Source: Acidimicrobiia bacterium (GTDB taxonomy: Bacteria; Actinomycetota; Acidimicrobiia; Acidimicrobiales; Bin134). Taken from it: 64,000 bases of DNA. A model generated the notes under the pieces. The model saw only the letters and a list, made by a program, of their open reading frames with translations. It did no database searches and had not been told where the DNA came from. The DNA is taken from positions 1 to 64,000 of the forward strand of contig VYEX01000077.1 of the NCBI GenBank assembly GCA_009842675.1. The letters run 5' to 3'. Of this stretch, positions 40,175 through 46,755 are shown piece after piece. Within the stretch, counting starts at the first letter, position 1. Every line of letters starts with the position of its first letter. The translations under genes were made by a program, and so were the position numbers.

Positions 40175-40893
40175 ATTCTGACCCTGATCTCGCCGCTCTA
40201 GCCGAACGCCTCGGCTATCGCTTCAACCAGCCCAGCTTGCTGGAAGAGGCGCTGACCCATAGATCTTGGTGCGCCGACCACGCCGGGGCTTCCTCCAACG
40301 AGCGACTGGAGTTCCTAGGCGATGCCGTGTTGGCCCTGGTGGTGACCGACCACATCTACACCGCCTACCCCGCCATGGCCGAGGGACAATTGGCTCCCCT
40401 GCGAGCTGAGGTGGTCCGAGCTGAGACGCTGGCCGATCTGGCTGTTGAGCTTCAGCTGGGCAAGTCCCTTCGCCTCGGCCGGGGGGAAGAGGCGTCTGGG
40501 GGAAGGGAAAAGCAGTCGATCCTCTCCGATGCCATGGAGGCGGTGATCGGGGCGGTCTATCTGGATGCTCCTTGGGAAGTCTTGATCGACCTGCTTAGAG
40601 GGTGGTTGGCCGATCGGATTGCCGCGGCCGCTGAGGGCCCGGGCATCCGAGACTTCAAGACCAGATTGCAGGAATACTGCGCCCGGAGCGGCTTCGATGC
40701 GCCGGAGTATCGCCTGTCGGAAAAGGGTCCCGACCACGCCAAGCAGTTCCTTGCCGTTGTGCACATGAACGGCGTGGAGTGGGGTCGTGGTGAGGGCCGG
40801 TCCAAAAAGCAGGCCGAACAGGCCGCGGCGGCCTCAACCTGGAAAACGCTGGACTCTGGGGCTGTCGCCGCGGCGACCGGAGCAACCTCGTGA
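40171..40893 (+). CDS. rnc: Ribonuclease III
   Basis: LTHRSWCADH, NERLEFLGDAVLALVV, dsRBD C-terminus; start uncertain (track begins 40237; homologous LAERLGYRFNQPS lies upstream). Confidence 0.9.
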   Translation: MNSDPDLAALAERLGYRFNQPSLLEEALTHRSWCADHAGASSNERLEFLGDAVLALVVTDHIYTAYPAMAEGQLAPLRAEVVRAETLADLAVELQLGKSLRLGRGEEASGGREKQSILSDAMEAVIGAVYLDAPWEVLIDLLRGWLADRIAAAAEGPGIRDFKTRLQEYCARSGFDAPEYRLSEKGPDHAKQFLAVVHMNGVEWGRGEGRSKKQAEQAAAASTWKTLDSGAVAAATGATS

Positions 40894-40921: not shown

Positions 40922-41767
40922 ATGATCGCATTGCCGGAAATCGAGACCATCCGACGAGATCTGGACAGGGAGCTGTCCGGTCTTCGCATCAAGTCGGTGG
41001 AGGTCGTGGAATCGGGGTATGCCAAGCGGTCGGGAGGCCCGAAGAAGTTCGTCAGCCGGTTGGAGAAGATGAAGATCACTGGCGTGCGCCGTCGAGGGCT
41101 GTTCTTGATCATGAGCCTCGACAGCGAAGATGTGGTGGTGGCCCATTTGGGCACCGGCGGCCAACTGCGACGCCATGCCAACCGGGACGAAGTCGACCCC
41201 AAGACCGCCCTGTCGATCACATTCACGAAGAGCGGGCAGCTCCGGCTGGTGGATGAGCCGGGAGATGCCGAACTCTTTTTGGCCAACGCCGACAAACTGG
41301 TCGAGGAAGTCCCCGAGTTGGACGGGCTGGGTATCGATCCCCTCGATCAGCCAGTGCCTTGGCGTATGTTCGGCCAGATCCTCTTGGCCCAGGAAGCCAA
41401 GTTGAAGGCCGTGCTGACCGATGATCGCGTTGTGGTCGGTTTGGGCGAGATGTACTCCGACGAGATTCTGTTCGCGGCCGGATTGCGATTCGACCGCCTG
41501 CCCAACTCGTTGGGGCCCCAAGAGGTGCGGCGGCTTCACCGGGCGATGGTGGAAACCCTGCACGATGCGGCCAAGCACCGGGGGGCATCGTTGGAGGATG
41601 GCCACTACTTGGATGTTCACGGCCAGCCGGGCGGCTACGAGGAATACCTCAACGTGTTCAAGCAGGCGGGCCAGAAGGGCCGGCCCTGTCCCCGCTGCCA
41701 CCGCACCATCCAGAAATATCGCTTCCGTCGTCGGTGGACGTACTACTGCGAGCAGTGCCAGATCTGA
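40922..41767 (+). CDS. Fpg/MutM-family protein with degenerate active site
   Basis: MIALPEIETIRRDL...AHLGTGGQLRRH...VVVGLGEMYSDEILFAAGLR...CPRCHRTIQKYRFRRRWTYYCEQCQI; SD AGGAG 7 nt before ATG 40922. Confidence 0.88.
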   Translation: MIALPEIETIRRDLDRELSGLRIKSVEVVESGYAKRSGGPKKFVSRLEKMKITGVRRRGLFLIMSLDSEDVVVAHLGTGGQLRRHANRDEVDPKTALSITFTKSGQLRLVDEPGDAELFLANADKLVEEVPELDGLGIDPLDQPVPWRMFGQILLAQEAKLKAVLTDDRVVVGLGEMYSDEILFAAGLRFDRLPNSLGPQEVRRLHRAMVETLHDAAKHRGASLEDGHYLDVHGQPGGYEEYLNVFKQAGQKGRPCPRCHRTIQKYRFRRRWTYYCEQCQI

Positions 41768-41842: not shown

Positions 41843-44800
41843 GTGTTCTTGAAGGCGTTGACGCTTAAGGGGTTCAAATCCTTCGCCGATTCCACCACGC
41901 TGGTTTTCGAACCCGGTGTGACGGTGATCGTGGGTCCGAACGGCAGCGGCAAATCCAATGTGGTCGACGCAGTGGCCTGGGCTCTGGGCGCTCAAGCTCC
42001 GACATCGGTGCGCTCGGCCAAGATGGACGACGTCATCTTCGCCGGGACCGCCTCTCGAGCGGGCTTGGGTCGAGCAGAGGTGTCGCTGAGCATCGACAAC
42101 ACCTCCCGTCTCCTGCCCATCGAATTCGAGGAGGTGACCATTACCCGCACGCTGTTTCGCAGCGGAGACAGCACTTACGCCATCAACGGCGTGCCCTGCC
42201 GACTGCTTGACATCCAAGAGCTGCTGAGCGACTCCGGCGTAGGTCGCCAACAGCATGTGATCGTCTCCCAGCGCCAGATTGAGGGCGTCCTGAGCGCCCG
42301 GCCCGAAGACCGGCGGGCGGTTATCGAAGAGGCCGCCGGAGTCTTGAAGTATCGCCGCCGCAAGGAGAAGTCAGAGCGGAGGCTGGCCGCATCCGAGGCC
42401 AACCTCACTCGTTTGTCCGACGTGGTTCGGGAGATCCGGCGCCAGCTCCGGCCGCTGGAGCGACAAGCCGAGGCCGCTCGGCGCCATGGCGACCTGCTGG
42501 CGGAACTGAGCGGTCTTCGCCGCTATCTCGCTGGTCAGGAGATCGATCAGCTGCGCCGGCGGGTTCGCCAGCTGACGCAGGACCAGGCCGCGGACCGCCG
42601 CGAGATGCAGCAGATCGCCGTGCAGGCTGAAGCCTGGGATCGAGATCTGGCCGCAGCCGAGGCCCAGCTCTCGGCTGCCGATGGACAGGACATCAGCGAT
42701 GCGCTGATGCGCTTCGAGGGGATCACCGAGCGTTTGCGGGGATTGGAGGCCCTGTTGTCGGAGCGCCGTCTCCGCTTGCAGCGCGATCGCAACGCCGGAA
42801 TGGACGAGGATGTGGTGGCCACGCTGGAGGCCGAATCGAATCGCCTCGAAAGAGAACTGCTAGAGGTAGAGGATTCGGCGGCAGCTTTGGAGCCTGCGGC
42901 AGTGGCCGTGGCCGGTGCTGAAGAGGAACTGGAGCAGCTCCGCCTGTCGTTCGACGAGCAATGGGGTGATCAAGACGTTCCGGATCCGGAATCGGATGCT
43001 CCCCGGATCAAGGGCGAGATAAGGATCTTGGAGGCGTCGATCCACCGGGATCAGGACGAGTCGGATCGCCTGGGCCAGAATCTGAAGGCCTTGGAGGAGC
43101 GTCGGCAAGAACTAGTCGAAGAGTTGGACCGATGCTGGGCTGAGGCCAAGGACGCCGAGATCGCTCGACAGACGGGGGAGCAGGAGCGTGAGCGGGCAGA
43201 GCGGGCCGCCAGGGAGGCCCGCTCGGCACGCGACCAGCAGAAATCTGTTCTCGGGGAGGCGGTTGGAGAACTTCAAGCCTGGGAAGCCCGTCGAGAGGCC
43301 CTATCCCTGGCCCTGGATGAAGCGCGCGATCAATCCGGAGCCCAGCGTCTGGTTGGCATCGAGGGCGTGCTGGGCACCCTGGTGGAAGTGGTCGAAGTCG
43401 ACCGGGGATGGGAGGCCGCATTTGAAGCCGCGGCAGGTGAGGCAATTGCCGCGGTTATTGCCACCGACACTGAAGTCGCAATGAGGGCAATCGCCACCCT
43501 GGAGGCCGACAGCGTGAGTGGTGCGGTCTTGGCCCTAGGCGGATCAGTCCCGCAGGCAGGGACTCCAGTCGTAGGCGATCCCTTGCGCCCCCATGTGCGT
43601 TCGTCTGTGTCCGGGGTGGACCAGTTGCTGGACGCATTGATCGGATCAGTCGGGGTGGTCGAAAGCAGCGACCAGGCGGCCGAGGCGGCGATCGCCGATC
43701 CCGCCGCGGTGGTTGTCACCCGCCGGGGCGACCGCTTCTCCTCCTCCGGATGGCGAGTAGGTGTTCGTCGTTCTGGGGCTACCAGAGGATTGCTCGAAGA
43801 GGCCATTGAGGCTTCGGCAGGGGCACAGGATGCGGTCAACGCCGCTGAACAGCAGTTGGCTGTGGCCGATAAACGGTTGGAGGAGGCAGGGCAAGAAGAA
43901 GCCCGGACCCGGGAGGAGGCGCGCGACCATCTCGAAGCCCGAGATGCGGTTTGGGCTCGAGCGAATGCGGTAGAGCGAGAGCTTCGCGACGCGGAAGTGG
44001 GGATTGGGGCTCTCGGCCCCCGGCGCTCGGAGTTTGATGCCAGGATTGACGAGGATCGCCGTCGGCTGGGCGATCTACACCAAGAGTTGCCCCAATATCA
44101 GGCCAAAGAGGTCGAGCGGAAAGCGCGTGTCGAGAGCTTGAACCGAGACCGCGATGAGCTGGCCCAAAAATCCCACGCGGTTGGCAGCCTCCGCGCCGAC
44201 TATCAGGTGAGGGCGGCTGGGATAGACGAGCGACGCCGGCTGCTGTCTGCGCGGCGTGACGAAGTCGAGCGACGGTTGAGCCAGATGGCTCAAGCCCGGT
44301 CCGAGGCCGCCTCCCGTCGAGAGGCGGTCGACCAGCGACTCGCCATCGTCGACCAATTGATGGGCTTGGTACTCGAGCGTTCTCAGGAGGCGGGCCGTCA
44401 GCTTGAGGAGCTGCGCCAACGGCGGGCCGAGGAGTCAGAGGCGGCTCGGATGGCTGCCCAGCGGCTTGAGGGCTTGCGCAGCCAGAGGGCACAGGCCGAA
44501 GCGCGGTTGGGCCAGTTCAGGGAAAGAGACCGCAGCGCGGAGATCGAGTTGGCCGAAGCAGGAATCAGGCTGGAAGCAGCCACAGATCGGTGTCGCCGCG
44601 AGCTGGACTGCGAGCCTGCTGAGGCAGTGGCCACCGAATGCCCTCCTTTGGAAACGGGTGTCGCCCCCGCCGACCGGGTCAGGGCTTTGGAGCAAGAACT
44701 GCGAATTATGGGTCCGGTCAACCCGCTGGCGTTGGAGGAGTATGAGGCGCTCTCGGAGCGATATGAGTTCACCCAGGCCCAGATCGACGACATCCGTCAG

Positions 44801-45337
44801 AGCCGCCGGGAACTCCGCAAGGTGATCCGCAAGATCGACGAGGAGATCGTCAGTGTGTTCTCGTCGGCCTATGCCGACGTGGCCCGCAATTTCGCCGATC
44901 TGTTCCAGACGCTCTTTCCCGGCGGCGAGGGCAAGTTGCGGCTCACCCAGCCCGACGCGCTGCTGGACACCGGGGTGGAGATTGAAGCCCGCCCATCAGG
45001 CAAGAACATCAGGCGTTTGAGCCTGCTCTCGGGCGGTGAGCGCTCGCTTACCGCGCTGGCCTTCTTGTTTGCCGTGTTCCGCAGTCGTCCTTCGCCGTTC
45101 TATGTCATGGACGAGGTGGAAGCAGCCCTTGACGATGTAAACCTGCACCGCTTCCTCCAGCTGGTTGACGAATTCCGGGCGGACGCCCAGCTACTCATCG
45201 TGAGCCACCAGAAGCACACCATGGAGGCGGCCGACTGCCTCTACGGAGTGTCAATGAAACCGGGAGGAAGCTCGAAAGTGCTTTCTGAAAGAGTGGTGGT
45301 AGCCTCAGAACCGAAGGTTTTGGTCGAGCAAGGCTGA
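41843..45337 (+). CDS. smc: Chromosome partition protein SMC
   Basis: [65 protein letters not shown]. Confidence 0.96.
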
Positions 45338-45339
45338 GG

Positions 45340-46755
45340 ATGAGCAACGGGCCCGAAGATCCCCGGTCGGAGTGGGATCCCCTGGGGTGGGAACTGGAAG
45401 ACTCAAGCGAGCAACCCAGGTATGTGCCTGCGCCGCGCGAGGTAGAAGTGGTGGAGTGGGTGCCCCAAACCAGTCCACCGCCTCAACCCCGCAATCCCGC
45501 AGTGATCATGCTGGTGGCGTCGGTGCTGTTGGCTGTCCTGGGCCTGGTCGGCATAGGTATCGGTGTGGGCAGCATCTTCTTCAACCGGGACGCTCCGCCT
45601 CCCGAGATTGTGGTGGTGTCGGGACCGCAGGTGGTGAGCGCCCCAGCCGAAGCCCCCGCCTTGCAAACTCCGCTGGTGGTGGCGCCCTCCGACCAGACAC
45701 CGTCAGGCGAATCCCCTGGAGCCGACCAACTACCTAGCCCACTGGTGCCTGATGACCCGGTGGTGGCGGTAGCCCGAGCGGTCATTCCCTCGGTGGTGCT
45801 CATTCAGGTGGACGGACCCGATTTCGAAGATCCCGAGATTGCTCCCGAATTTCCCCCTGAGGACTGGGAGCCTGGGGACGAACTTCCTGAAGAATTCGAA
45901 TTTCCCGATCCGGAGCAAAGGGGTGGACAGGGTTCTGGGATCATCTACGACTCGTCCGGTCATATTCTGACCAATGCCCACGTTCTGGGCGATGCTGAGA
46001 CGGTGAGGGTGCAGTTTGCCGACGGCACCCGAGCTGAGGGCGTCGTCGTAGGAACCGCTCCGGCGATCGACGTCGGCCTGATACGGGTTGACACGGACAT
46101 GGCACTGACGCCGGCAGTCTTTGCCGATCGCTCCACCGTCGAAGTCGGACAATTGGCGGTGGCGGTGGGCAGCCCGTTCGGGTTGCAGCAGTCGGTGACC
46201 TCGGGGATTGTCAGCGCGGTGGGCCGAGCCATCAGAGAGGGGACCGGTGGCAGTGCCTTCGTCGAGATGATCCAGACCGATGCCCCGATCAACCCCGGAA
46301 ATTCCGGCGGCGCCCTGGCTAATCGCTTCGGCCAGGTAATCGGAATGAACACCCTCATTCAGACCGATGGTTCAATTGGCAACATCGGATTGGGGTTCGC
46401 CATCCCCTCCGACATCGCCCTAAATATCGTCCAGCGCATCCTGAACGGTGAGAGCACCGAACTGGGATATCTGGGCGTCTACGGGACTGATCCCGAGATA
46501 GGACACCCTGGAGCCCTTGTGGTGGAAGTGGAGCCGGATACTCCCGCCGAGCGAGCCGGGCTGATGGAGGGGGATTTGATCATCCTGATCGACAATGAGG
46601 TGGTTTCGACGTTCACTGAGCTTGCCGCCAAAGTTCAATTCCGCGTTCCGGGAACGGAAGTGGAATTGGAGGTGGTCCGCGACGACGAGAACATCACGCT
46701 CACCGTGGTCATCGGCTCTCGGCCATCTGTCGAAGAGCCCGAAGACGAAGAATAG
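45340..46755 (+). CDS. HtrA/DegP-like membrane-anchored serine protease with PDZ domain
   Basis: TM segment; ILTNAHVLGDA, DVGLIRV, NPGNSGGALAN triad motifs; C-terminal PDZ. Confidence 0.9.
   Translation: MSNGPEDPRSEWDPLGWELEDSSEQPRYVPAPREVEVVEWVPQTSPPPQPRNPAVIMLVASVLLAVLGLVGIGIGVGSIFFNRDAPPPEIVVVSGPQVVSAPAEAPALQTPLVVAPSDQTPSGESPGADQLPSPLVPDDPVVAVARAVIPSVVLIQVDGPDFEDPEIAPEFPPEDWEPGDELPEEFEFPDPEQRGGQGSGIIYDSSGHILTNAHVLGDAETVRVQFADGTRAEGVVVGTAPAIDVGLIRVDTDMALTPAVFADRSTVEVGQLAVAVGSPFGLQQSVTSGIVSAVGRAIREGTGGSAFVEMIQTDAPINPGNSGGALANRFGQVIGMNTLIQTDGSIGNIGLGFAIPSDIALNIVQRILNGESTELGYLGVYGTDPEIGHPGALVVEVEPDTPAERAGLMEGDLIILIDNEVVSTFTELAAKVQFRVPGTEVELEVVRDDENITLTVVIGSRPSVEEPEDEE

Follow-up and report, generated by a model that had tools for sequence, protein, structure and literature searches.

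In an Acidimicrobiia bacterium, the gene in the mutM position between rnc and smc encodes a protein that has kept the Fpg fold and lost the catalytic and lesion-recognition residues of this enzyme. The gene lies in the window, by which we mean the whole stretch of 64,000 nucleotides that was analysed. Orthologues in the same degenerate state are present at this locus in many related genomes, most of which have a canonical Fpg elsewhere. MutM is a textbook repair enzyme with a single function. We think it probable that the resident MutM already had another function besides that of a glycosylase, that another Fpg took over the repair of 8-oxoG, and that the second function alone remains. No paper on a degenerate MutM or on the mutM gene of Acidimicrobiia was found in the open-licence literature.

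Domain structure and residue losses of the window protein

Pfam matches to the window protein were above cut-off for both Fpg domains (Fapy_DNA_glyco, 73.6 bits; H2TH, 59.5 bits). An AlphaFold model (89 orthologues) was compared with Bst MutM (1r2y) using Foldseek, which gave an rmsd of 2.2; the remaining scores are listed in Table 1. The Fpg N-terminal domain, the H2TH domain, and the zinc finger fold are present. The protein resembles Bst MutM (1R2Y) and E. coli Fpg (1K82) in the whole fold, the zinc finger, and the H2TH domain. In contrast to these enzymes, it is without the catalytic and lesion-recognition residues and falls below the curated NCBIfam cut-offs for Fpg equivalogs (197.1 versus 212, and 184.1 versus 203.3). 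The Nei / endonuclease VIII equivalog was not matched either (58.6 versus 252 bits).

The substitutions in the original prediction had been noted by eye, and every one of them was recovered in the alignment with Bst MutM and 110 orthologues. Relative to Bst MutM, the catalytic pair is absent (Pro2 is Ile and Glu3 is Ala); Lys60 is replaced by Leu, Met77 by Thr, and Asn174 by Glu; and the DPRRFG loop is replaced, with Pro for Arg112 and Asp for Phe114. Glu6 and Lys162 are kept, as is a four-cysteine zinc finger with Arg264 (Bst numbering). Retention of the zinc finger with its Arg is correct for the window genus; however, about half of the order's degenerate sequences are without the zinc cysteines, and the Arg position is R in 34%. 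The H2TH domain also remains, but it has lost the Asn that contacts the DNA phosphate; the presence of the domain therefore does not imply DNA binding.

The start at ATG 40922 had been favoured on the spacing of the Shine-Dalgarno sequence. It agrees with the AGGAG motif 7-8 nt upstream, and an ATG followed by MIALPE or MLALPE is kept in all congeneric sequences read. If the start had been mis-called, translation from TTG 40931, which precedes CCG GAA in the window, would give MPEIETIRR and restore an N-terminal Pro-Glu. This alternative was rejected and has next to no probability, because the ATG is conserved in the congeneric relatives, whereas the codon equivalent to TTG 40931 is CTA, CTG, or CTT. 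Moreover, the Pro-Glu in question belongs to the conserved LPE(V/I)E motif and is not the catalytic pair, and the remaining residue losses would persist with either start.

Table 1. Location of the degenerate mutM gene, its features, and its neighbours in the window
Feature	Coordinates	Strand	Evidence
Degenerate MutM/Fpg orthologue (Fpg1), 281 aa	40922..41767	+	Pfam PF01149 and PF06831; AlphaFold pLDDT 93.3, pTM 0.89; TM 0.89/0.91 to 1r2y
Start codon, and Ile2-Ala3 replacing the catalytic Pro2-Glu3	40922..40930	+	ATG kept in genus; SD AGGAG 7-8 nt 5'
Lys24, member of the Fpg1 signature	40991..40993	+	
Lys51, invariant in 50/50 degenerate sequences versus 61% of near-canonical ones	41072..41074	+	
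Leu60 replacing Lys60 (Bst numbering)	41099..41101	+	Alignment
Thr78 replacing void-filling Met77	41153..41155	+	Alignment
DEPGDAE replacing the DPRxFG intercalation loop; Arg112 and Phe114 gone	41252..41272	+	Alignment
Glu176 replacing H2TH Asn174	41447..41449	+	Alignment
Helix 199-221 (PQEVRRLHRAMVETLHDAAKHRG); its face R203/R207/H214/K218 is conserved, and the degenerate form shows no relaxation here	41516..41584	+	
Zinc finger C256-x2-C259 ... C276-x2-C279, with R258, H260, R271	41687..41758	+	
rnc (RNase III), conserved 5' neighbour of mutM	40237..40893	+	Synteny
smc, conserved 3' neighbour of mutM	41843..45337	+	Synteny

Between smc and ftsY, the window contains an ORF (45340-46755) for an HtrA/trypsin-like protease with a PDZ-like end, as judged by sequence alone.

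Distribution of the degenerate form

We searched 296 genomes of the class and read 110 rnc-linked mutM orthologues. Sixty of these are intact and 50 are degenerate, in a near all-or-none residue pattern; the orthologues were drawn from the higher-scoring matches, and the 60:50 ratio is not the class-wide frequency. The intact sequences have Pro2, Glu3, Glu6, Lys60, Met77, Arg112, Phe114, Asn174, and Arg264, with Ser in place of Asn in one; two of the 60 have no N-terminus in the open frame and were scored only from Lys60 on. The degenerate sequences, which come from 12 family codes, are without Lys60, Met77, Arg112, and Phe114, and mostly without Asn174, which has turned into Glu, Asp, or Pro in most of them. 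Pro2 is absent in a subset only: families f9, f10, f32, and part of f39 are degenerate yet still have Pro2-Glu3. Glu3 is absent from every sequence of the window genus; among further relatives, a few (L214, L252, and L271) have also lost it. Because the window genus has lost both Pro2 and Glu3, it is the most advanced degenerate state. The replacements of Glu3 in the further relatives are Gln in MIQLPEIE and Ser in VNSLPELE; L252 and L271 retain Lys60.

All 110 orthologues are adjoined by rnc and/or smc, one of the two being missing in a few cases (short stretch or smc unmatched); the predicted retention at a conserved rnc-mutM-smc position thus holds across the sample. The named relatives are Acidimicrobiia MAGs, which include Candidatus Poriferisocius and Sva0996 (the closest group) and Candidatus Microthrix bins.

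Two further observations concern sequences with lesion-recognition or catalytic residues in place. One orthologue from family f53 (L068) has complete catalytic residues and an altered zinc finger (CPRTKK...YYSVSQ); zinc-ligand loss therefore occurs in the canonical form too. In families f64 and f98, from another class of the phylum (L277-L281, L283, L287-L289, L291, L292, and L294-L296), the rnc-linked Fpg starts ATG/GTG-GAG-CTG-CCG (M-E-L-P-E-V-E). None of them has the catalytic N-terminal proline; the lesion-recognition residues are intact, and the rnc-linked Fpg is the only one above the cut-off in these genomes. Possibly, another N-terminal amine acts as the nucleophile.

A second, canonical Fpg in genomes with the degenerate form

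With the NF002211 cut-off as threshold, 50 of the 54 genomes that have the degenerate form contain another canonical Fpg, versus 0 of the 60 that have the intact form. The window's own genome, which the original prediction had proposed to search for a canonical Fpg, has one, L002 on contig C39, in which no catalytic residue has been lost. Fpgs of the L002 type occur in 51 of the 296 class genomes, and in all 51 the degenerate form occupies the rnc-smc position. The raw Fisher value for the co-occurrence (4.8e-28) overstates the evidence, since starred branches of the rnc+smc tree yield no more than four pairs that are phylogenetically independent (sign test, p 0.125).

No canonical Fpg above the cut-off was found in four genomes with the degenerate form (G145, G171, G179, and G251); these exceptions may be losses or assembly gaps. 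G145 and G171 (L040 and L052) belong to family f13, in the window's genus, and are 95-96% complete. The second Fpg copies of f39 group with those from the window's order in one Fpg2 family, as expected from horizontal transfer. The window's own genome also contains a further Fpg/Nei paralogue (L004, C60:115713-116495) with no ATG or GTG at the expected place in the conserved frame; a TTG ahead of CCG GAG would yield MPEIIEVEYYRR.

Phylogeny and origins

The rnc-linked mutM is vertically inherited, as judged by its gene tree and synteny. In the mutM gene tree calculated with the trait columns removed, the degenerate form has three origins: a clade of 44 sequences in the window's order (support 98), family f32, and part of f39, the last nested among intact f39 relatives. 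The rnc+smc tree requires at least 7 changes, 4 of them forced by starred branches. The replacement Fpg of f32 is of a different type, which independently supports the f32 origin. A phylogeny constrained to group all degenerate sequences into one clade could not be rejected (AU test, p=0.255), and the three origins are therefore those of the best tree only. Repeated origin of the degenerate form is favoured but not proven.

Selection, relaxed sites, and the Fpg1 signature

The dN/dS values are 0.04-0.14 for degenerate pairs (0.06-0.11 within the window genus) versus 0.04-0.22 for intact pairs. The degenerate mutM is under strong purifying selection; its state reflects neither chance nor decay. 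From intact sequences to the degenerate clade of the order, column entropy rises from 1.42 to 1.98 in region 31-90, from 1.10 to 1.85 in region 91-130, and from 1.11 to 1.54 in the zinc finger. Helix 199-221 goes from 0.87 to 0.86, whereas every other region is looser. The most relaxed sites in the degenerate set include the equivalents of R112, M77, R264, H74, P2, F114, N174, and K60; relaxation is largest at the catalytic and DNA-contact residues. Pro1 (numbered without Met) is needed for Fpg catalysis (PMC4737139). From the residues lost we infer that 8-oxoG/FapyG excision is gone in the degenerate form.

Twelve mostly charged, lineage-specific residues (K24, K51, D139, W147, R192, E201, R203, R204, R207, K218, R258, and R260) make up an Fpg1 signature, which the window protein has, with His at position 260, and Bst MutM does not. 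The mean score out of 12 is 11.72 for degenerate, 11.18 for near-canonical, and 5.59 for far-canonical sequences, 2.05 for the second Fpg, and 4 for Bst MutM; the positions were picked post hoc by conservation, so this contrast is biased, and the comparison of degenerate with intact sequences is its informative part. The signature is also present in sequences outside the sample, both from this class and from another one. On a helical wheel of helix 199-221, R203, R207, H214, and K218 lie within 60 degrees, with V210 adjacent. Near-canonical genomes have the signature without Fpg2; the signature thus predates the replacement, and it is mainly for this reason that we propose a second function older than the catalytic loss. 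The signature residues may, however, be structural for the lineage.

Alternative explanations

The protein could still be an enzyme with changed chemistry, either an AP-lyase or a glycosylase with a different specificity, and act through its N-terminal amine or some other residue. Glu6 occurs in every sequence of all forms and Lys162 in nearly every one, and the degenerate families with Pro2-Glu3 would fit this reading. We regard it as rather unlikely, given that the window genus has neither residue of the pair and that the lesion-recognition and phosphate-contact residues are absent in all three origins; in E. coli Fpg (again numbered without Met), mutation of Arg108, Asn168, or Arg258 impairs action on oxoG and has less effect on AP-site activity (PMC4737139). 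The original prediction was a DNA-binding Fpg fold without glycosylase/lyase chemistry. The fold, the predicted lack of chemistry, and some non-repair role stand, whereas continued DNA binding is doubtful because the usual DNA contacts are gone. An architectural protein that binds DNA through the old Fpg cleft, perhaps with SMC, is accordingly unlikely: relaxation is strongest at the DNA-contact residues, among them Asn174 with its acidic or Pro replacements; zinc cysteines are gone from half of the order's degenerate sequences; and net charge drops on average from +6.6 to +1.1. These points outweigh the conserved rnc-mutM-smc position and, in the window genus, a basic protein (pI about 8.95) that still has its zinc finger and R271. 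On the basis of gene position, the protein may yet act at the chromosome or with SMC.

If the protein were a regulator or subunit of Fpg2, it would be expected to occur almost always alongside a second canonical Fpg, as it does. This reading has little probability, as the signature is already present in intact orthologues from genomes with no second Fpg, the congeneric G145 and G171 have the degenerate form even though no canonical Fpg was detected in them, and f32 employs a different Fpg type. A location inside a conserved gene string could also mean a decaying relic kept merely for operon structure or translational coupling; the low dN/dS of the degenerate pairs and the full-length open frames in 12 families led us to reject this very improbable reading.

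A proposed second function of MutM

We prefer the explanation that a second function outlived the takeover of repair. The ancestral MutM in this part of the Actinomycetota would have had two jobs, 8-oxoG excision and a non-catalytic one, the latter through K24/K51, R258/R260, and the face of helix 199-221. Excision would have passed to another Fpg, probably Fpg2; the active site of the resident protein would then have decayed while the second function held it in place, and the vertically inherited mutM of rnc-mutM-smc would have become a pseudo-glycosylase. Our guess is that the second function is most likely partner binding in genome maintenance, the partner being either a protein or a nucleic acid bound away from the former DNA cleft; the falling mean charge argues against a generic nucleic-acid role. 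A wider proposal, which we put forward tentatively, is that MutM of this Actinomycetota branch has a second, non-catalytic genome-maintenance role through the helix face and the charged residues, and that other Fpgs, by repeatedly replacing its repair activity, have separated the two functions in nature.

The mutM gene of the window adjoins rnc, as does fpg1 in M. tuberculosis, and with Fpg2 (Rv0944) mycobacteria likewise provide an actinobacterial genome that has two genes of the Fpg family (PMC2734929). In mycobacteria, however, the rnc-linked Fpg1 is the active enzyme, whereas in the window's genome the rnc-linked copy is degenerate and the unlinked copy canonical. AlkD2 is a less conserved DNA glycosylase orthologue in genomes that also have an active one; it lacks a recognition element and excision activity, and binds DNA weakly (PMC4433238). 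AlkD2 has a HEAT-repeat fold, in contrast to the Fpg/H2TH fold of the window protein, and the degenerate MutM differs further in being tied to the replacement of a resident gene and in its retained signature. The effect of mycobacterial TAG on growth and ParA is independent of its glycosylase activity (PMC3366916). TAG and ParA provide a model for a possible second function; however, the TAG fold is unrelated and TAG is still an enzyme.

A MutM that has lost its repair residues, probably more than once, and is yet kept suggests a hidden second role in this protein. As natural separation-of-function mutants, the degenerate forms indicate where this role should be sought. For annotation, they call for caution: a gene called mutM at the classic locus may not repair 8-oxoG, and the repair gene may be elsewhere in the genome.
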